Virus record (IMG/VR): IMGVR_UViG_3300001450_000210
Coordinates: 1 to 22,671 of that record
Origin: a virus
Direction: 5' to 3' (one strand)
DNA length: 22,671 nucleotides
Shown here: piece by piece, positions 9,270-22,200 of the stretch
Position numbering within the stretch: the first letter of the stretch is position 1
Layout of the letters: each line of letters opens with the position of its first letter
Notes under the pieces: generated by a model
Told to the model about the DNA's origin: nothing
Database searches by the model: none
The model's input: the letters and a program-made list of their open reading frames with translations, nothing else
Made by a program: the position numbers and the translations under genes

Positions 9270-10652
9270 ATGGCTTTAACAAACGCAAGCGGCGGTGGGG
9301 GCGCTACATCTCCATCTACTTATTACCCAGGTAACAACCATGGGGAGTATCAATTTATATATATAAGTGAAATAATAGATAATTTTACCGCTGCCTATGT
9401 TGGTGAGGGTAAAATACTTCAAAGTGTACTTAAGGGAGACGTTACTTTCCATGCTTATAGAGCATTGCAAGAACTACACTATGACACTGTTAAGTCTATA
9501 AAATCGCAAGAAATAGAGGTTTGCCCAAACCTAATAATGCCACTGCCACATGATTATGTTAATTACGTTAAATTAGCTAGTGTAGATAGCAACGGTATAG
9601 AACACGTCTTATACCCAATGAGACATACTAGCAACCCGTTTGCTATAGAACAAAACTACACAACAACACTAGCGGATGGCGAAACAACAGAAGACACTTG
9701 TCAAGACTGTGGGGACACGGGTGCTACCTATGTATACAATGGTTCTGATTTAGAAGATCAAGATATAGATTGCTCTGCGAGTGAGGTAACGTGTTCTTAT
9801 GACACATCCTGGAGTCTAGCAACGGTAGTTGATGGTGATACAGCTGATCCAGAAAAAATTGCAGGAGCTAGCGCAACTAGAAATTACTTAAATAGAGTAT
9901 ATGGAACTGATGTTGATGGAGTTGGTAGTCCAGGGCGTACTGCGTATTGGTACAAACTATTTGATGCTATAGATTCTTATTGTAACTGCCTAGCCAACAA
10001 TGGGGTTGCCTCCATTGATTCTTGCGGTGTTAATGACGGTAGTAATTGGACTAATTTTCCTGTAACAGACACTTCTCCTACTTTAAACGTATTTTTTCAG
10101 ATGGGGAATGGACCTTGGTCTCATATTAGTAATACATCAACCGCAAATATTACATCAACAATCTCAGCATCAGGACTATTTCCATCTCAAACAGTTATTA
10201 GCCCTGAAAGCGCTAGCCACACTTCAGATTCTTGGGATAGATATAGAAACGCTAGTAGCGGAGGTAGTGTAAGTAATGATAATTTAGGACAAAGATACGG
10301 TTTACAAGCAGAGCATGCCCAGACAAATGGTAGTTATTATATCGACGACCTAAACGGTAACATACATTTTAGTTCTAATATATCGGAGCAAACTATAATT
10401 TTAAAATACTTAAGTGATGGTGTTGGTACTGAAAATGATTCTATGATACATAAGTTTGCAGAAGAAGCTATGTACAAGCATATAGCTTATGGTTGTGCTT
10501 CTGCTAGAATAGATATTCCAGAAGGCGTTATACAGAGATTAAAAAAAGAAAGAGCAGCGGAAACAAGAAAAGCAAAAATAAGATTATCAAATATTAAAAT
10601 TGAGGAAATTGCGCAATTGATGAGAGGTAAATCTAAATATATACAACACTAA
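9270..10652 (+). CDS. Probable tail connector/tubular protein with a Cys-containing insertion
   Basis: A 460-residue protein whose two ends look conserved and whose middle does not. Residues about 25-125 (YISEIIDNFTAAYVGEG, then FHAYRALQELHYDTVKSI and CPNLIMPLPHDYVNYVKL) resemble the N-terminal part of connector or tubular-A-like tail proteins of marine viruses. Residues about 345-460 (RYGLQAEHAQTNGSYYIDD, then HKFAEEAMYKHIAYG and RKAKIRLSNIKIEEIAQLM) resemble the C-terminal part. Between them, about residues 130-340 are rich in Ser, Thr, Asp, Gly and Cys, with CQDC at 144-147 and a CNC further on, and look like an inserted surface domain. A 2-nt gap separates it from the previous gene and a 1-nt gap from the next, so all are probably one operon. 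Role inferred; an internal tail function with an exposed insertion fits best. Confidence 0.6.
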   Translation: MALTNASGGGGATSPSTYYPGNNHGEYQFIYISEIIDNFTAAYVGEGKILQSVLKGDVTFHAYRALQELHYDTVKSIKSQEIEVCPNLIMPLPHDYVNYVKLASVDSNGIEHVLYPMRHTSNPFAIEQNYTTTLADGETTEDTCQDCGDTGATYVYNGSDLEDQDIDCSASEVTCSYDTSWSLATVVDGDTADPEKIAGASATRNYLNRVYGTDVDGVGSPGRTAYWYKLFDAIDSYCNCLANNGVASIDSCGVNDGSNWTNFPVTDTSPTLNVFFQMGNGPWSHISNTSTANITSTISASGLFPSQTVISPESASHTSDSWDRYRNASSGGSVSNDNLGQRYGLQAEHAQTNGSYYIDDLNGNIHFSSNISEQTIILKYLSDGVGTENDSMIHKFAEEAMYKHIAYGCASARIDIPEGVIQRLKKERAAETRKAKIRLSNIKIEEIAQLMRGKSKYIQH

Positions 10653-10653
10653 T

Positions 10654-11883
10654 ATGCCAGAGTTAAAACATACTTTTAGGGGTGGTAAAATGGAAAAGGA
10701 TCAAGACGAGAGAATCGTCCAAAATGGTCTTTATAGAGAGGCTTTAAATATATCTGTTTCAACTTCAGAAGGATCTGATGTTGGTTCGGCTCAAAATATA
10801 TTAGGTAATATACGTGTTAGTGAGGCAACTAAAGGTTTAACTCAAGATAATGCAACTTTATCTGGCGAGCTAATAAACGAAGGAGGATCTTGGGCTTTTG
10901 GAGGAACTGATAAATTCACAAACAATCATATAGCTGTTACCGTAGACCCACAGACAGATAAATTATATAGATTTGTTAACTCAGTACTAATAGCAGATGA
11001 ATGGTCGGGGGCTAACTCAATGGTAACAATGATGATGGATAGAATTGTAGAGTTTGATACTAGTAAACCCCTTGACGCTAATTGGCAAGTTAAAGAATCA
11101 GCTGTTATGGTTGATATTTATTACGTAAAAGACGTGGCTGTTACTCCAGAGATGCTATGTAATGATAATAGTGGTGATATGATTAGGTTTAAATTAATAC
11201 CAGCACCAACAGCTACGCTAAATAAAAAGAATCAGTTAAGATGGGGCATGAGAGTTTTTAGTAGTGATGCTAATGGGGTTATTTTAGAAGGTTTTATTAC
11301 AAACGTAGACTATGTTAGTGGTTGGATTTATGTGCAAACTAATTCTATTGGAGTAGAAAATTGGACTGGTGGAGTTGTGGAATTTTTTGGAGATAGAAAC
11401 TTAAACTTTGATCCTGATAGAAACATAACAGGTATAAATATACTTGATGGCATGATATTTTGGACAGATAATTATTCTGAACCAAAAAAAGTAAACATCA
11501 AAAGAAGTAAAATGGGTAGTAACACCTCTTTGTGGTCAACAACGCCCGGTTTAATAGGTAGATATCAAAGCTTGCCTGTCATGAAAATAGATGATTTTTT
11601 ACAACACACCGTTTTAATTGCGGATGAAAAAGTTACTTATGACTGTGCTATAGATGATTTAGTTTGTGACGATGGTTCTGGTTGGGTTCAAAGTAAAGAT
11701 ATTGACGATCCAATACCACCACCAGAACCGGTGGACGATACAAATCCTTTGTTAAATCAAGAGGAGCAATGGATCGATGATTTAGCTAATTCAACTGGAA
11801 GTGGAGGTTACTCTGGAGCGGCGCAACTAACTCTAGATGATGATGCGTTAGAACCAGATCAATCTCAAAATTACTCGTTATAA
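10654..11883 (+). CDS. N-terminal part of a tail stabilisation/muzzle-like beta-propeller protein (split gene)
   Basis: The 409-residue product begins with a block I recall as the signature start of very large marine and crAss-like tail proteins: HTFRGGKMEKDQDERIVQNG at about 6-25, then EALNISVSTSEGSDVGSAQN. Beta strands follow, with NILDGMIFWTDNYSEPKKV at about 262-280, a typical propeller-blade motif. In relatives I recall, this motif continues in the same chain into an EEHxTVIKK-type block; here that block is instead in the next gene. The last 75 residues are acidic and low-complexity (PPPEPVDD, DDDALEPDQSQ) and may be an added linker. The stop shares its last A with the next ATG (TAATG at 11881-11885), so the next gene can be translated by reinitiation. 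The two products probably assemble together. Confidence 0.65.
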   Translation: MPELKHTFRGGKMEKDQDERIVQNGLYREALNISVSTSEGSDVGSAQNILGNIRVSEATKGLTQDNATLSGELINEGGSWAFGGTDKFTNNHIAVTVDPQTDKLYRFVNSVLIADEWSGANSMVTMMMDRIVEFDTSKPLDANWQVKESAVMVDIYYVKDVAVTPEMLCNDNSGDMIRFKLIPAPTATLNKKNQLRWGMRVFSSDANGVILEGFITNVDYVSGWIYVQTNSIGVENWTGGVVEFFGDRNLNFDPDRNITGINILDGMIFWTDNYSEPKKVNIKRSKMGSNTSLWSTTPGLIGRYQSLPVMKIDDFLQHTVLIADEKVTYDCAIDDLVCDDGSGWVQSKDIDDPIPPPEPVDDTNPLLNQEEQWIDDLANSTGSGGYSGAAQLTLDDDALEPDQSQNYSL

Positions 11884-14800
11884 TGATGAAAAATAAAAAA
11901 GCATCTCCATTAAAATTTCAAACCATCATGTCAACGATGGTGGCCACTATATCAGCTGGTATAAATTCTGGAATTGAAAAAATAAATGAACTAGGAAAAC
12001 CTAGACCTCAAGTAAATGATCTGTGTGAATTTTCAGAAACATGTAGGCCTGTTTTTGTATTAGAAAAACACATGACGGTTATTCGAAAGGGTCCAACCAT
12101 GCCTTTAGATATAGAATTATATCAATTTGCTGACGGAACTAACACAAACTATGTAACAGAAGGCGTTGCTACTAAAGCTGTTTTTTATGGAAGTTACATG
12201 GATTCTACACATAATTATACAGAGGATATAGATACGTTATTAGCTGGTAATTGGCCTCCTTTACAAACTGGTTATGGTAGAGGTATTGATGGTTCTAATA
12301 TAAGTGCTTTTTACACTAGAAATAAAGTTCAAAAAAAGGCTGGCGATGAGGTTATAATACCTATAGATATAACTCAATCGGGTGAAGATTGGGAAGCAAA
12401 CGATCAACTAATAATCAAGCATGATTATGATGATGGGTTTGGTAACATAAAAACAGCCACTTGTAGATGTCAAATAATAACAGCGGCTCAAACGAGATGG
12501 ATTGATGACGGTATGGGTGGTGAAGATTGGGTAAGTCCTAGTTGGAGCCCTTATTCGCATCACTCTACAAATCCACCAACTAACTTTCCTTCACCGGGAA
12601 CAAAAGCTACTTGGGGTATGTATAAACTTCCTGGTGATGGGGCTGACAAATTTGTTCACGCTAAGATTATGTCTATGTCTGGTAACTTCCCAATACTAGG
12701 AACAAAAGGAAGCCACGCATACGAAGTTGAATTAGTACAAATAGAGCCTTTATTTAAAGTAAAATTCCCTAGATTTTCTTATAGATATAAATATGAAGAC
12801 GGAGAATACTCTGTTTTTGCACCTTGGTCTGAAATAGCTTTTGTGCCAACTGGATTTGACTACTCACCTAAAAAAGGTTATAACTTAGGCATGGAAAATG
12901 CTCTAAGACTCTTGAAGGTTTTAAACTGGAGGCCAAGTAATTGCCCTAAAGACGTTGTTCAAATTGATATATTATACAAAGAGTCTAACTCGCCAAACGT
13001 TTATACGGTAGAAACATTCCAAAAAGATGATCCAATACCAGCTGGTGAAACACAGAACTACTGGGACACCCCCGCTAATGGTAGTCATTTTGGTAAGTAT
13101 ACCATTAAAACAGAGTTAATACATAAGGTTGTTGCTTCTAATCAATTATTAAGACCTTGGGATAATGTGCCAAGAAAGGCTATAGCCCAAGAAGTTACCG
13201 CTAATAGATTAATATTTGCTAACTACTTACAACAATACAATGTAGAAAAAATTGATTCTTTAAACGAAAGAGTAAGTATTAAACCATCGTTTTTCACACA
13301 GGTTGAAGAATTAAATCCTTGGGGAGAAACTGATGCTGTAGAAGATAATGGTGAGTTAGGGCAACCAGTTAAATCTTTAAAATCACAAAGAACATACCAA
13401 TTAGGAGTTGTATATAGAGATAAGTATGGTAGAGAAACTCCAGTATTAACATCAAAATCAGGATCTGTTGATATTCAAAAACGTGCTGCCAGCTTACAAA
13501 ATAGATTAAATGTTAGACTAATGTCAGATCCACCTTATTGGGCTGAATCATACACTTTTTACATAAAAGAAACTTCTAACGAATATTACAATCTAGCTAT
13601 GGATCGCTGGTACAATGCTAAAGATGGTGGCGTTTGGCTTTCCTTCCCTTCTTCTGAGAGAAATAAAATAACTGAAGATAGCAATTTAATATTAAAAAAG
13701 AAACACGATTCTAACGCTTTTACCGAATATGATGTTTCTTACAAGGTATTGTCGATAAAAAACAACGCGCCTAAGTTTATAAAAACAGACGCTAAATATT
13801 GGGGATCAGCACCAATAATGTTACCTCCACCTGGCTGGGGTCATGTTGGTAACTGGGATACTGGTATGTTACATCCAACTGGATTACCGCTACCTAATAG
13901 GATGAATATAGATGTAATAGCAGAGTACTTTGATTCCACAATGTTAAAAGGTTTATCTGGTTTTAATGGAGCTCAGATTAGAATAACACAGTCACCAGGC
14001 GTACCATCAGCATACAATGATGTCGCTAGTGATTTAACAAATTACACTAATTGGTATGACGTTGCTAACATTAGTTATATTGGACCTCCAACTGAAACTT
14101 ATTTTGATGAAAATGGTTTTGAGCAAGAAGTGCAGGGTCAAGCCACTAGGTTAGTTAGAATAGCACTTGAAACAGCTTTTGGTGATGATGCTTTGTTTTG
14201 TGTGTCTGATTCCGTTATAACACCTTTCGTAGTTAACACCGCCAACTCTAATATATCTATGGCTAGAGGTTTATCTATAGAGGCTAGAACCATGCAAGAA
14301 AAAGAGAAAGCTCAATTTCAGGGTAGATTCTTTGTTAAAGTTTTAAGAGATGCTAACGTTGAGGCTAATATAGTACAATCTCAAAGAGTAGAAGGCGATA
14401 AGTACCAAGTGCTACAATCTAAAGATTTAAAATATATATGTGTTGCTCATCCAGGCACACAAGATTGGAACCATGATCCAACTTACTATATACCACCTAA
14501 TTTAGATTGGGCTAGTGGAGTTACTCAAGACAGAACACATTTGGTTAGTTCTTATGGTAAGTATGCAGGAAGATTAGCTCCTTACTTAGATTCTGCAGTT
14601 GCAGTTCAACTCCCACCTTCTTCTTCTCCGTACTGGCCTTATGGACCTAGTAACTTTACAGATGGTGTTTTTACAAAACCAGGACCAGACGGCAACTGGT
14701 GGAACAATGTAAATGCTGATTTAGGTTATTTATCTGGTAATCCAAAAATATTTCCTGACACAAGTCCATCTTTACACGGTTGGCCAAGTTATGGTCCTAA

Positions 14801-17800
14801 AAGCCTAGCTTGGGCCCCTCCAGCTATGTGGGGGCTTGCGGTTGGTGAAAAGGCTAGTGTTAGTGCTGGTACAATGCAATATGACTATTTGTCTGCAACT
14901 TCTTATCCGGATGGTGCTATTCTTGATTTATCTATGGGATGTGATGCTGGTGGTACTGGTAACGGTCAAACAGCTGGGGATTGCATAGCCGATCCTATTC
15001 ATACTTGGACTTATACTGGTGGTATTGGTACGGAAGGGGCTGTTATAGCCGCTAATGCTAAAGATAGCAAGCTATATCCAACTGCTGGTAATCCATTTGC
15101 CTTACCCGCTGTTTGGGGTAATCAAGGTGATTTACTATCAGATCCCGCTGCTGCTGGTGGCGCTTGGCCACAAGGAAAGCAACCATATTATGATTTAAGC
15201 ACAATGACCAAACTAAGGGTTCACTGGTACAGCTTGTGGAGAGGTAGAGATGACATACTTAGTGATTGGCCTTTAGGTCGTTTTCACCCTGATAGATGGT
15301 TTATAGATAAAGCTGGTGCAGCTAGTGGAGGTAGTGGCGCTGGTATATGGGACGATGGAAATGTGTCTTTCATGCAAGTTTCATATTGGGGCGTTGGCTC
15401 TGAGGCTTCTTATAATAGAGAGTCTAACACTGTTTTAGCAGCTAAACACCAGCCTTCTGAACTTCTATTTGCAGATGCAATGGCAACTGTTGGTACTATG
15501 TTTAGGTTTAAACAAGATCCGGATCAAATCGTTTACACTATAACTAGAGCTGAAATTGAGCCAGATATATGGAATTATGAATCACCCGTAGGATCATGGG
15601 GTTATTCAGATGATGGGACTGAAGTCAAAGGTGGGGGTGGAATGATGGGTGGTTTAGCGCCTCCTTTTGGTGGGTATGTTAAAGGTAGCAATTTAGCTGG
15701 TGCAACGGCATTTATATCTGATGTTGTTGAGCGTAAAACCCACCACACTAATAGAGCTAAGTTAACTGGTGGCGCTCCATACAACCGTAGAGTTAGATAC
15801 ACTATAACTTTAGATAAAATAATAGGTACAGAGGGTCCGTCTGCTTTTCACCCTATAACAAATCACGTTGATGTTGATGGTCTTTCTAATATAAAAAGAG
15901 GAAGGATGAAGTATAGTACTGACCTACCTAATCTAAGCACTACTTATGGAGCCACACCACCTTCGCAGTCGTGGTATAATCTTAATTCTTATTGGAACGC
16001 GGCCAATGGAGCTGGTGGAAGTATAAACTCTCAACCAAACGATATAAACGATTCCTACTACACTAATAACCCTAAAGCATATATTGGATTACATGAAAGG
16101 GGTTTAAACGAAACAACTATTGAGGTTATATCCTTGTATACTGGTAAAGATAGAGACTTTCCAATGAGTAACAACCCAGCTATATGGGAAACAGAACCAA
16201 AGGAAGATGTTGGTTTAGACATATATTACGCGGCTAGCCCTTCTTATCCTATTCAATTAAAAAGACATAGGTGGGATGGTAATTTAACTGGTGCAGATGG
16301 AAACACTGGTAGTGATGAAGTAGACGCAAGTGGTGCTAATTGGTATGACTTCTCACACAGAAGCGAGGAGATAATAAAAGTCGGCTCAACTGTTATCGCT
16401 GATGGCTTTCAAGAAATGAAAATATGCGCTGTTAAAGGTGATGTTATATTTTTTGATAGAATAATAGAGGACGACGCTGATGTGTTAACTGATTTAGGAG
16501 TTGGAATGACCTTGAAAATTATTTGGCAAGGAGAAGGTACTTATTATGGCGCTACAAACGATACTGAGTGGGTTGAGGTTACTGTTACTGAGGTTTTAAG
16601 CAATTCAGCTTATAGAATTGGAGACTTTAACAATCTACAGGGTCACACCCATCAAGTACTACACGGTTTAGGTTATTTCAATTGCTATTCTTACGGTACT
16701 GGAGTTGAATCTAATAGAATAAGAGATGATTTTAATGCCATAACAATAGACAAGGGTATTAAAGCGTCCATGCCTTTAGCTGAGCAGTTTAAAGAAGAGA
16801 GAAAAGGTAGTGGCTTGATATTTTCTGGTATATATAATTCTACTAGTGGTGTTAATAGAACAAATGAATTTATCCAAGCCGAGCCAATAACTAAAGATCT
16901 AAATCCAATAAATGGTTCAATTCAAAAATTATTTGCTAGAGATACTGACTTGGTTACATTTTGTGAAAACAAAGTATTTAAAATACTTGCTAAAAAGGAC
17001 GCATTATTTAACGCTGACGGAAATACAAATGTAACTTCTAATCAAGCTGTATTAGGTCAATCAATTCCATTTGGCGGTGAGTATGGTATATCAAAGAATC
17101 CAGAATCTTTTGCGCAAGAATCATATAGACTATATTTTACAGATAGAGATAGAGGATCTGTTTTAAGACTATCTAAGGACGGTTTGACACCTATTTCAGA
17201 TGCAGGCATGAAAGATTGGTTTAGAGACAACCTAAGGTTCTCTAAATCATTAAGGGGTAGTTACGATGATAGAGACAATCAATATAATTTAACCATAGAA
17301 ACTATGGATCAAGATGCTAACGAGAAAGCTTATACCGTTAGTTATACTGAAAAAACAAGAGGATGGGTTAGTTTTAAAAGCTTTGTTCAACAAGGTGGTA
17401 TTAGTCATAAGAATACCTATTACACCTTTCCATCTAATAAATACAACAGAATAACCGCAAACAACCCTTGGGGACATGCGTATGGAGCTGCTTTAGGTGT
17501 TTTAGATTATACAGCTGAAATTTACCAACATAGTTTAGATATAGATTTAAAACGACTTGTTACATCAAATTCCAATGGTAGTCCAAATATTGTCGTTACG
17601 GACGGTCAAGGTACTATACTGCCTGGTATGAATGTAGAGGGAGATGGTATACCAACAGATACTAGAGTCGACCTAGTAAATTGCGATGGTAGTAACTGCT
17701 TAATACAACTAAACTTTGGTATTGGTCTACAGACAGGTGTTTGGATAATAACTAATACAGAATTAACATTTACAACCGCTAGAAATAGATTCTATGATGT

Positions 17801-19607
17801 TGACTCTTACTCTATGGTTAAAGTGTTATTTAACGGCGCACAAGGCACTGTTAAAAGATTTAAAACCCTTAATTACGAGGGTACTCAAGCAAGAGTAACT
17901 CAAGATACATCTAATCTTCACCAAATAATAGATCCTTCAACTATGGTTATAGTTCCAATAGGGCAGGATTACTATGATAATCACCATAAACTAGGTTGGA
18001 GAGTACATAACATATATACTGATCTGCAAGAAGGTCAAATGGCTGAGTTTATTGACAAAGAAAACAAATGGTTTAATTACGTTAGAGGTTATAGTGAAGC
18101 AGGTGATGGTGATTTCTTAGATACAGGTGAGTTTTCTTTACAAGGGTTAGGTTTTACTGGAGATTTAGACGACCCTATTTATGGTTGTACTGACATATCG
18201 TCTCCGGAATATGATGATACCGCAAATATAGATGATGGTAGTTGTTGGACTGGAGCTGAGGGCTGTACGGATCCAAACGCCTTAAACTTTAATGCAAGTG
18301 CTTTAGATGACGATGGTTCATGTATATTACCTGTTTATGGGTGTACAGATATTACAGCATTTAATTTTGATCCTCTACAAGACCCTGTGCCCAATGTAGA
18401 TGATGGTTCATGCTACCCAGTTATTATTGGTTGTTTGGATACTTTAGCTTTTAATTATATTACCCCATCAGGATCTCCTCAATTAGACGTTAACACGGCT
18501 TGCGTTGATGATAGTGGAGCTCCAAACGGTTACGATGGAGTTAATTGTTGTATAGATGTTATACCTGGTTGTACGGATCCAACCGCTATGAATTATAATG
18601 CATTAGCAAATACAGATGATGGTACATGTGAATACTGTATATATGGTTGTATGGATGCTGTTTATGATAATTACGATGCTAACGCAACATGTGATGATGG
18701 TTCATGCGCTGACAATGTTTATGGTTGTACAGATGTATTCTCTCCAGATTACGATCTAAATGCAAATATACCATGTAATACAACTAATCCTGACGATGTG
18801 GATCATTACGATGGCGTTAGTGTAACTATTGACCCTAGTAAAGACAACTCATGTTGTGGTACTAGCGGATGCACGGATGCTTCTGCGTATAATTATGATC
18901 CAACTGCAACTGCTGATGATGGGTCTTGTATTTACAACTCGGCTGTCGGTTGTACAGATGATTCAGCGGTCAACTATAATCCTGGTGCTACAGTACCTTG
19001 TGATGGCACTAACAGCGCTGAACCTTGTTACGGTGCTCAATCAGGTCCAGATTGCTGTTGTAACCCTTGTGTAGATGGCTGTAGAAATCCATCAGCAGAT
19101 AACTACGATCCTTTAGCTACCTGCGATGACGGATCATGTGTTTATGGAGGATGTAATTATGGATGTATGGATGTTAATGCTACAAACTATAACGCTGATG
19201 CAACGTGTGATGATGGTACTTGTTTAGGTGTAACACCACCAAATTTTGCAACTGGATGTACAGACCCAACTGCAACCAATTATGACCCGCAAGCGGTCGT
19301 TGATGACTTATCGTGCTCGTATTGTCATCCATCTGCTGGGTGTATGGCATGGATGGCGCCGGAAATCTGCGTGGATCTAACCTCTTTTAATAATGGTAAT
19401 TTAACTTCAGTATATTTTCCAGGACAAGTATGGACAGATTCATTACACTTCTGGGAGTTTTGGGCTGAACACTTAAATGACACGCTTGTAAACGTAAGTA
19501 TTGATGGAGATGTACTAGAGACATTTATGAGTGGATGTTGTATGAGCGGATTAACCATTCCAAAAGAAATAATTACTAATTTAGATAAAAACGGAGATCC
19601 ATATTAA
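11883..19607 (+). CDS. Giant tail protein: muzzle-like propeller, Trp-rich insertion and C-terminal Cys repeats
   Basis: A 2574-residue protein taking a third of the window. Residues 1-40 are basic, then Ala/Ile-rich (MMKNKKASPLK start). Residue 55 onward resumes the tail-propeller sequence left unfinished by the previous gene (VFVLEKHMTVIRKGP at 57-71, then SYRYKYEDGEYSVFAPWSEI near 300). About 905-1290 is Trp/Pro/Gly-rich and looks inserted. About 1620-1900 is the best conserved part (SGIYNSTSGVNRTNEFI, SIQKLFARDTDLVTFCENK, YRLYFTDRDRGSVLRLSKDG). The propeller-like part ends near 2085. Residues 2101-2490 hold twelve GCTD...DDGSC repeats, followed by an 85-residue cap rich in Trp, Phe and Cys. 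There is no signal peptide. In crAss-like phages the equivalent protein forms the tail muzzle, so distal tail and host contact are likely. The start at 11883 is fixed by the TAATG overlap. Ca2+ binding and disulfides in the repeats are inferred. Confidence 0.75.
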   Translation: MMKNKKASPLKFQTIMSTMVATISAGINSGIEKINELGKPRPQVNDLCEFSETCRPVFVLEKHMTVIRKGPTMPLDIELYQFADGTNTNYVTEGVATKAVFYGSYMDSTHNYTEDIDTLLAGNWPPLQTGYGRGIDGSNISAFYTRNKVQKKAGDEVIIPIDITQSGEDWEANDQLIIKHDYDDGFGNIKTATCRCQIITAAQTRWIDDGMGGEDWVSPSWSPYSHHSTNPPTNFPSPGTKATWGMYKLPGDGADKFVHAKIMSMSGNFPILGTKGSHAYEVELVQIEPLFKVKFPRFSYRYKYEDGEYSVFAPWSEIAFVPTGFDYSPKKGYNLGMENALRLLKVLNWRPSNCPKDVVQIDILYKESNSPNVYTVETFQKDDPIPAGETQNYWDTPANGSHFGKYTIKTELIHKVVASNQLLRPWDNVPRKAIAQEVTANRLIFANYLQQYNVEKIDSLNERVSIKPSFFTQVEELNPWGETDAVEDNGELGQPVKSLKSQRTYQLGVVYRDKYGRETPVLTSKSGSVDIQKRAASLQNRLNVRLMSDPPYWAESYTFYIKETSNEYYNLAMDRWYNAKDGGVWLSFPSSERNKITEDSNLILKKKHDSNAFTEYDVSYKVLSIKNNAPKFIKTDAKYWGSAPIMLPPPGWGHVGNWDTGMLHPTGLPLPNRMNIDVIAEYFDSTMLKGLSGFNGAQIRITQSPGVPSAYNDVASDLTNYTNWYDVANISYIGPPTETYFDENGFEQEVQGQATRLVRIALETAFGDDALFCVSDSVITPFVVNTANSNISMARGLSIEARTMQEKEKAQFQGRFFVKVLRDANVEANIVQSQRVEGDKYQVLQSKDLKYICVAHPGTQDWNHDPTYYIPPNLDWASGVTQDRTHLVSSYGKYAGRLAPYLDSAVAVQLPPSSSPYWPYGPSNFTDGVFTKPGPDGNWWNNVNADLGYLSGNPKIFPDTSPSLHGWPSYGPKSLAWAPPAMWGLAVGEKASVSAGTMQYDYLSATSYPDGAILDLSMGCDAGGTGNGQTAGDCIADPIHTWTYTGGIGTEGAVIAANAKDSKLYPTAGNPFALPAVWGNQGDLLSDPAAAGGAWPQGKQPYYDLSTMTKLRVHWYSLWRGRDDILSDWPLGRFHPDRWFIDKAGAASGGSGAGIWDDGNVSFMQVSYWGVGSEASYNRESNTVLAAKHQPSELLFADAMATVGTMFRFKQDPDQIVYTITRAEIEPDIWNYESPVGSWGYSDDGTEVKGGGGMMGGLAPPFGGYVKGSNLAGATAFISDVVERKTHHTNRAKLTGGAPYNRRVRYTITLDKIIGTEGPSAFHPITNHVDVDGLSNIKRGRMKYSTDLPNLSTTYGATPPSQSWYNLNSYWNAANGAGGSINSQPNDINDSYYTNNPKAYIGLHERGLNETTIEVISLYTGKDRDFPMSNNPAIWETEPKEDVGLDIYYAASPSYPIQLKRHRWDGNLTGADGNTGSDEVDASGANWYDFSHRSEEIIKVGSTVIADGFQEMKICAVKGDVIFFDRIIEDDADVLTDLGVGMTLKIIWQGEGTYYGATNDTEWVEVTVTEVLSNSAYRIGDFNNLQGHTHQVLHGLGYFNCYSYGTGVESNRIRDDFNAITIDKGIKASMPLAEQFKEERKGSGLIFSGIYNSTSGVNRTNEFIQAEPITKDLNPINGSIQKLFARDTDLVTFCENKVFKILAKKDALFNADGNTNVTSNQAVLGQSIPFGGEYGISKNPESFAQESYRLYFTDRDRGSVLRLSKDGLTPISDAGMKDWFRDNLRFSKSLRGSYDDRDNQYNLTIETMDQDANEKAYTVSYTEKTRGWVSFKSFVQQGGISHKNTYYTFPSNKYNRITANNPWGHAYGAALGVLDYTAEIYQHSLDIDLKRLVTSNSNGSPNIVVTDGQGTILPGMNVEGDGIPTDTRVDLVNCDGSNCLIQLNFGIGLQTGVWIITNTELTFTTARNRFYDVDSYSMVKVLFNGAQGTVKRFKTLNYEGTQARVTQDTSNLHQIIDPSTMVIVPIGQDYYDNHHKLGWRVHNIYTDLQEGQMAEFIDKENKWFNYVRGYSEAGDGDFLDTGEFSLQGLGFTGDLDDPIYGCTDISSPEYDDTANIDDGSCWTGAEGCTDPNALNFNASALDDDGSCILPVYGCTDITAFNFDPLQDPVPNVDDGSCYPVIIGCLDTLAFNYITPSGSPQLDVNTACVDDSGAPNGYDGVNCCIDVIPGCTDPTAMNYNALANTDDGTCEYCIYGCMDAVYDNYDANATCDDGSCADNVYGCTDVFSPDYDLNANIPCNTTNPDDVDHYDGVSVTIDPSKDNSCCGTSGCTDASAYNYDPTATADDGSCIYNSAVGCTDDSAVNYNPGATVPCDGTNSAEPCYGAQSGPDCCCNPCVDGCRNPSADNYDPLATCDDGSCVYGGCNYGCMDVNATNYNADATCDDGTCLGVTPPNFATGCTDPTATNYDPQAVVDDLSCSYCHPSAGCMAWMAPEICVDLTSFNNGNLTSVYFPGQVWTDSLHFWEFWAEHLNDTLVNVSIDGDVLETFMSGCCMSGLTIPKEIITNLDKNGDPY
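18183..19337 (+). repeat. Twelve Cys/Asp-rich protein repeats (GCTD...NYDP...DDGSC) in the giant tail protein
   Basis: The repeats cover residues 2101 to about 2485. Each starts GC(T/M/L/R)(D/N), has an aromatic-rich centre (typically NYDP or NYNP, then A), and nine end in a DD(G/L)(S/T)C motif. Repeats 4, 7 and 9 are longer and instead end in a Gly/Asn/Asp-rich stretch with CC or CCC. The order is short, short, short, long, short, short, long, short, long, short, short, short. Three repeats carry an extra Cys before DDG (TCDDG). I count about 43 Cys from residue 2101 to the end. The Asp/Asn spacing recalls thrombospondin type 3-like calcium-binding repeats common in Bacteroidota surface proteins. 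DNA copies are diverged, so the array is not recent. Confidence 0.85.
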
Positions 19608-21693: not shown

Positions 21694-22200
21694 ATGAATG
21701 AAAAAGAATTAAAAGAAGAAATAAAAGCTTTAGATCAAAAAGCCTCAACAAACAAGTTGGTATGGAGGCAGTTAACTGATAGTGATTGGGAGACATTAAA
21801 ATCTTGGTGGGCAGCTTGGCCTGACTGGCCTGTTCCACCCGCTAAAGACTTTTTGCCTCAAGATGGTAAAGGTGGTATAATGATAGAGAAGGATAAAAGA
21901 CCTATAGTAGCTGGGTTTTTGTACCAAACAAATTCAAAAGGAATACTACTAGAATGGATAATATCAGATCCAGATTATAGAGATGCCGATAGAGATACTG
22001 CTGTTGAAATGTTAATAAGTCAAGCAGAGCAAATTAGTATTAATATGGGTTATAAGTACATGTTTACTATTGGTAGAAATCCTGATTTAACAAAAAAGCA
22101 TGAAAAACTAGGTTGGTCAGTTGATAAAAAACCTTCCTATGAAATAGCAAAAGTAATATCTGGACCTGGATCTAAAGGATATAAACCAAACAACAAATAA
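21694..22200 (+). CDS. GNAT-fold acetyltransferase-like protein with unusual cofactor loop
   Basis: The 168-residue length and pattern fit the GNAT fold: a helical start, strands around 60-85 (GGIMIEKDKRPIVAGFLYQT), a strand ILLEWIISDP, a helix and the closing GYKYMFTIGR...HEKLGW that GNAT proteins use near their C-terminus. A Trp/Pro cluster occupies residues 38-46 (WWAAWPDWP). GNAT enzymes normally move an acetyl group from acetyl-CoA to an amine, binding the pyrophosphate with an R/QxxGxG/A loop. Here the loop at 92-103 reads DPDYRDADRDTA, so its glycines are missing and catalysis is uncertain. It lies inside the virion block, 42 nt after the previous gene and 3 nt before the next. That hints at modification of a virion or host protein, or a purely structural role. 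No substrate can be inferred. Confidence 0.68.
   Translation: MNEKELKEEIKALDQKASTNKLVWRQLTDSDWETLKSWWAAWPDWPVPPAKDFLPQDGKGGIMIEKDKRPIVAGFLYQTNSKGILLEWIISDPDYRDADRDTAVEMLISQAEQISINMGYKYMFTIGRNPDLTKKHEKLGWSVDKKPSYEIAKVISGPGSKGYKPNNK

Follow-up and report, generated by a model that had tools for sequence, protein, structure and literature searches.

A two-chain muzzle protein predicted from adjacent genes in a clade of uncultured crAss-like phages

The window (IMG/VR record IMGVR_UViG_3300001450_000210, 22,671 nucleotides) comes from an uncultured marine crAss-like phage and represents its virion block. Based on PHROG matches, the gene order is TerL, portal, MCP and two tail-ring-type proteins, followed by two genes designated here A and B; the features of A and B and of the tail-ring gene before them are on the + strand. 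The gene upstream of A (bp 9270-10652) encodes a tail ring/tubular-type protein (PHROG 13977), giving a gp43-gp44-like gene order. Gene A (bp 10654-11883) is an intact ORF encoding a 409 aa protein, made up of a core (residues 1-326, bp 10654-11631) and an A-specific acidic C-terminal tail (residues 327-409, bp 11632-11880; 83 aa with 20 D/E and 1 K/R). This tail is predicted to be mostly disordered based on its composition and on low pLDDT values at approximately residues 330-409 of the A AlphaFold model. Gene B (bp 11883-19607), also an intact ORF, encodes a 2574 aa protein. It begins with a B-specific leader outside the shared profile (residues 1-53, bp 11883-12041) with the basic start MMKNKKASPLK, followed by a core (residues 54-1868, bp 12042-17486), a C-terminal muzzle domain (residues 1965-2090, bp 17775-18152, matching the single-chain profile described below from column 1339 on) and an array of approximately 12 GCTD..A.NYN..A..DDGSC repeats (residues 2101-2480, bp 18183-19322). 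The stop codon of A (TAA, bp 11881-11883) and the start codon of B (ATG, bp 11883-11885) overlap by one base in the sequence TAATG (bp 11881-11885), as a previous sequence-only reading of this DNA had reported. Two further details of that reading were recovered at the same positions: the HMTVIRKGP block at B residues 63-71 (bp 12069-12095) and the upstream limit of the B frame, which is open only to bp 11844. It had also described an acidic end of A and a basic, alanine-rich start of B; the last 71 residues of A contain 17 D/E and 1 K/R and the first 30 residues of B contain 4 K/R and no D/E, so both descriptions of charge hold, but with only three alanines in those 30 residues the start of B is not alanine-rich. 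The A and B proteins of IMGVR_UViG_3300025168_000625 are 100% identical to those of the window.

Both proteins show similarity to parts of single-chain muzzle proteins. Positions 1-49 of PHROG 14478 (1474 positions) match the start of A, and later parts of this profile match B (E-value: 4.1e-109; best stretch 906-1141). When a profile built from 19 single-chain muzzles was used, columns 1-177 aligned with A residues 1-326 (E-value: 1.2e-53) and columns 178-1346 with B residues 54-1868 (E-value of approximately 0 for B), while columns 1339-1640 aligned with B residues 1965-2330 as a second domain. At the A/B boundary the columns abut, with none missing or overlapping, and the additions are the 83 aa A tail and the 53 aa B leader. 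This alignment to single-chain relatives, which the sequence-only reading had proposed as a check, bears out its main claim that one tail propeller protein is encoded by two coupled genes, as do the single chains of isolate relatives and three clade members with both halves in one gene. At columns with a conservation of ≥ 95% among the single chains, 145 of 152 cells (95%) are kept in the A part of the split chains and 329 of 336 (98%) in the B part. The Pfam family PF25731 (crAss_MUZ) matches A residues 6-75 (E-value: 6.5e-5) with a score of 21.7, below the gathering score of 27, and does not match B; 5 of 14 single-chain relatives match this family at an E-value ≤ 0.01, the first at 37.6 bits and above the cut-off. 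Because no muzzle was matched when A, B and a 14-sequence profile were searched against PDB sequences, the link to ϕcrAss001 gp44 was made using hhalign and fold comparison. The family profile of the relatives aligns over its full length with muzzles of gut crassviruses, gp44 among them (hhalign E-value: 5.4e-22), and its N-terminal part alone aligns with gp44 residues 9-159. The crass-fold region is present in B, although the alignment is weak there and model confidence is low. Based on these sequence comparisons, A and B are predicted to be, together, one crassvirus muzzle (tail gate) protein of the ϕcrAss001 gp44 family.

Like A and B in the window, gp44 (PDB 7qol and 7qok; PF25731) is encoded after a tail-ring gene, and the two muzzles are homologous end to end with the same domain order. 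However, gp44 is a single 1371 aa chain, whereas the window muzzle is encoded by two ORFs in different frames, cut at the equivalent of gp44 residues 154-163 (approximately), and has an extra A tail, B leader and C-terminal repeat array. The gp44 structure consists of a ring-joining domain and a seven-bladed propeller that is interrupted by IG1 (residues 163-292) between blades 2 and 3, with blade 3 interrupted in turn by the IG2/crass domain (PMC10172136). By alignment, the cut maps to the linker joining blade 2 and IG1: the A core would carry the ring-joining N-terminus and propeller blades 1-2, and the B core the start of IG1, the later blades and the IG2/crass-domain region. The split propeller of the sequence-only reading is thus retained with the cut placed in this linker instead of inside a blade, and the second gene does resume the propeller but would also hold IG1, IG2 and the crass-domain region. 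Cellulophaga phage ϕ38:1 gp097 (Pervagoviridae, Callevirus) is annotated as a structural protein and has the same gene order, but it is a single 1324 aa chain in which a short junction loop of 31 aa separates the profile halves. In an AlphaFold model of its residues 1-1200, the blade strands end at residue 149 and are followed by a linker, with the next strand at residue 178; modelled alone, its blades 1-2 have pLDDT values of mostly 76-92. This model matches the solved muzzles 7qol and 7qok with an E-value of about 2e-22, and unrelated propellers score much more poorly. In contrast, A modelled alone is ordered only at approximately residues 88-300 and its conserved first 86 residues are disordered, as would be expected if A needs B, and a Foldseek search with A alone gave no significant match (best E-value: 6.5e-3, small beta-barrels). 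As the ϕ38:1 and A models were made with different alignments, the contrast between them is only suggestive that A needs B. The T7 nozzle (gp12) is a single chain. Its tail tip, with ring-joining and propeller parts, is described as similar to the muzzle, which is distinct from it in its IG and crass domains (PMC10172136).

From 360 loci, 167 non-redundant muzzles were classed (L006 and L221 were left unclassed because of a contig gap and a contig end, respectively). Fourteen of these are split and 153 are single-chain. IMG/VR contigs L002-L005, L007-L010, L211, L214, L216, L220, L223 and L225 share the split position of the window, with short spacing; single-chain isolate relatives include ϕ38:1, Gundel_1, elemo and gp44. 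The exact abutment of the A and B profile matches and the recurrence of the split in 14 non-redundant genomes are more than chance. A sequencing or assembly error in which an indel breaks one gene into two frames typically leaves overlapping ORFs in different frames, and the muzzle of Panino is broken in this way inside a conserved blade motif. Such an error is scarcely credible here, and for the clade it is refuted, for three reasons. First, the 14 contigs sharing the split come from several metagenomes. Second, all three relative frames are represented, several with multiple stops between the halves. Third, each side of the junction has clade-specific extra sequence outside the family profile. 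In Panino itself (a Maribacter phage, PP540027.1; L032:8434-12347), the muzzle is annotated as two ORFs of 947 and 320 aa with the frame break inside the conserved GSIQKLF..DTDL motif, which looks like an indel or sequencing error; as an indel-type break at another place, it was rejected as a further split of this kind. Dulem virus 41 and cr108_1 were also rejected as other split muzzles, having single ORFs on inspection.

In the relatives, the distance from the A stop to the B ATG is 0-28 nt and every relative frame (0, 1 and 2) is represented. This combination indicates that frameshifting, a lost stop or assembly error is not a general explanation, and the two frames differ in the window, in agreement with the earlier view that the arrangement is not a simple lost stop. 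Introns and inteins are common in some crAss-like groups (PMC7886860), but one between the halves is hardly conceivable: the one-base overlap in the window and the 0-28 nt elsewhere leave no room for an intron and no frame for an intein, and both are excluded by this spacing. Programmed frameshifting or stop readthrough could instead yield one fused chain, as stop recoding is common in crAss-like phages (PMC7886860) and in L008/L009 and L223 the halves differ by one in-frame stop only. This stop is a lone TAG in L008/L009 (L009:9998-18982), whose remaining long ORFs all terminate with TAA, and a lone TAA in L223; from their sequences, TAG recoding or readthrough is possible in the former and readthrough in the latter. 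We nevertheless consider a fused product very unlikely as an account of the split, because the window frames differ, the relatives use three relative frames and at least two in-frame stops separate A from B in L216, L214 and L225. No canonical X XXY YYZ heptamer was seen in bp 11844-11883 by eye (as opposed to a program scan), and frameshifting as the general mechanism was rejected following frame analysis across the relatives. The split is free of the TAG question in 13 of the 14 genomes, or in 12 if L223 is also doubted.

In all but three of the single chains, the profile halves are no more than 156 residues apart. The exceptions, L255, L012 and L011, have 264, 373 and 633 extra junction residues, respectively. 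In trees based on five other virion genes (portal, MCP, p7502 and two ring proteins), one clade (100/100) holds the 14 split genomes, these three long-insert single chains and the two unclassed loci, with L255 and L011 nested among the split genomes (100/100 and 99/100). At least three fission/fusion changes are required to explain the tree, and constraining the split genomes together (one origin, no reversal) was rejected (p-AU 7e-70). These phylogenies indicate that the chains have been split and fused more than once in the clade. L012 was basal in the first trees and took no settled position when more genomes were included; that the long insert preceded the split is likely rather than proven. 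The single chain of L011 has an internal SPLK where many B chains begin (compare MKKFKKTSPLK), which suggests a re-fusion.

When neighbouring genes are found fused in relatives, this is classically taken as evidence that their products function jointly, and the A-B fusions seen here argue in this Rosetta-stone manner that A and B act together. The opposite possibility, that A is now a free accessory protein (for example, in receptor binding) and that B works without it, might be suggested by the variable GCTD-repeat tails of A in many relatives and by B being the larger part. This is most improbable: the ring-joining end and blades 1-2 are missing from B, and within the locus only A was found to match them; A keeps the single-chain invariants; and of the three relatives in which both parts are fused, two or more are nested among split genomes.

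What has been shown for this two-chain crassvirus muzzle is the homology of its parts, their exact complementarity, the conserved split, the gene order and the existence of fused relatives. It is very probable that A and B are two chains of one muzzle, cut in an insert of the blade 2-IG1 loop, that co-assemble. In the single-chain phages, the polypeptide forms the ring-joining strands and blades 1-2, leaves the propeller for IG1 and returns to it for blade 3; IG2 together with the crass domain comes next, followed by the other blades and the C-terminal part. Members of this clade would have taken a long insert into the loop that links blade 2 and IG1, and the gene would then have been cut inside this insert, leaving A with the ring-joining N-terminus and blades 1-2 and B with everything else. 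Close linkage (0-28 nt, and TAATG in the window) would allow coupled translation to make equal amounts of the two proteins, which would close the same seven-bladed propeller, with six of each chain per virion. We infer this translational coupling, the non-covalent reassembly and the 6:6 stoichiometry; co-assembly at 6:6 in the virion is the most likely arrangement.

In relatives, the GCTD repeats found at the B C-terminus of the window also occur in junction inserts and in A tails, the latter with further sequence, and a simple motif count gives 1-8 repeats at these two sites in most clade members. The A tails are short (61-132 aa) in the window, L214, L216 and L220, and are 303-1192 aa in length with GCTD repeats in most split relatives. 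Among eight complete genomes (several contigs are cut, making B counts incomplete for some), the repeats tend to be concentrated at one site, the A tail or the B C-terminus, with A/B counts of 0/12 in the window, 0/10 in L214, 1/11 in L220, 3/0 in L005, 4/0 in L223, 6/0 in L007 and 1/0 in L211; L004 (4/4) is an exception to this one-sided pattern. The split would give the tail tip another free chain end, able to hold variable GCTD-repeat display domains, and based on these eight genomes we infer that this is its most likely benefit. A stronger proposal, that the two-chain state is selected rather than neutral, with receptor-display arrays carried on either chain, a propeller of two non-covalently joined chains that opens differently during ejection and a clade alternating between fused and split forms, is rather doubtful. 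Searches of a limited literature collection for split nozzle proteins and for GCTD repeats in phages gave nothing relevant. A short stretch of the array resembles macrophage-expressed gene 1 protein, but not significantly (E-value: 0.096).

The SPLK start of B recurs on other B chains and on other late genes. SPL[KNHQR] is found in the first 19 residues of 13 of 879 ORFs, a 23-fold enrichment over the rest of the ORFs (p 2e-12); six of the 13 are B chains and the rest are other genes, mostly downstream of the muzzle. Sites include bp 11883-11915 of the window, L044:19787, L047:17763 and 19014, L074:18947, L089:16946, L108:18016 and L163:5785. This N-terminal motif may perhaps be a sorting or processing tag.

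The crassvirus muzzle has been described as highly conserved and as a likely gate for DNA and cargo, and the variation in its length reported to date lies in the crass and IG2 regions. What is new here is a lineage with a two-chain muzzle cut between blade 2 and IG1 and with repeated fission and fusion. The position of the cut shows where this essential gate tolerates a break, and the two-chain muzzle is a natural test of which contacts hold the propeller shut. It is also a warning to annotators that the N-terminal piece, A, belongs to the muzzle. The longest muzzle seen was a single chain of at least 4235 aa (L080:8489-21193). Downstream of B, bp 21694-22200 of the window encode a 168 aa protein matching PHROG 17252, a family that does not assign a function; in Manatee Spring phage, an N-terminal acetyltransferase-like annotation lies at a similar place (a comparison of position, not of homology).
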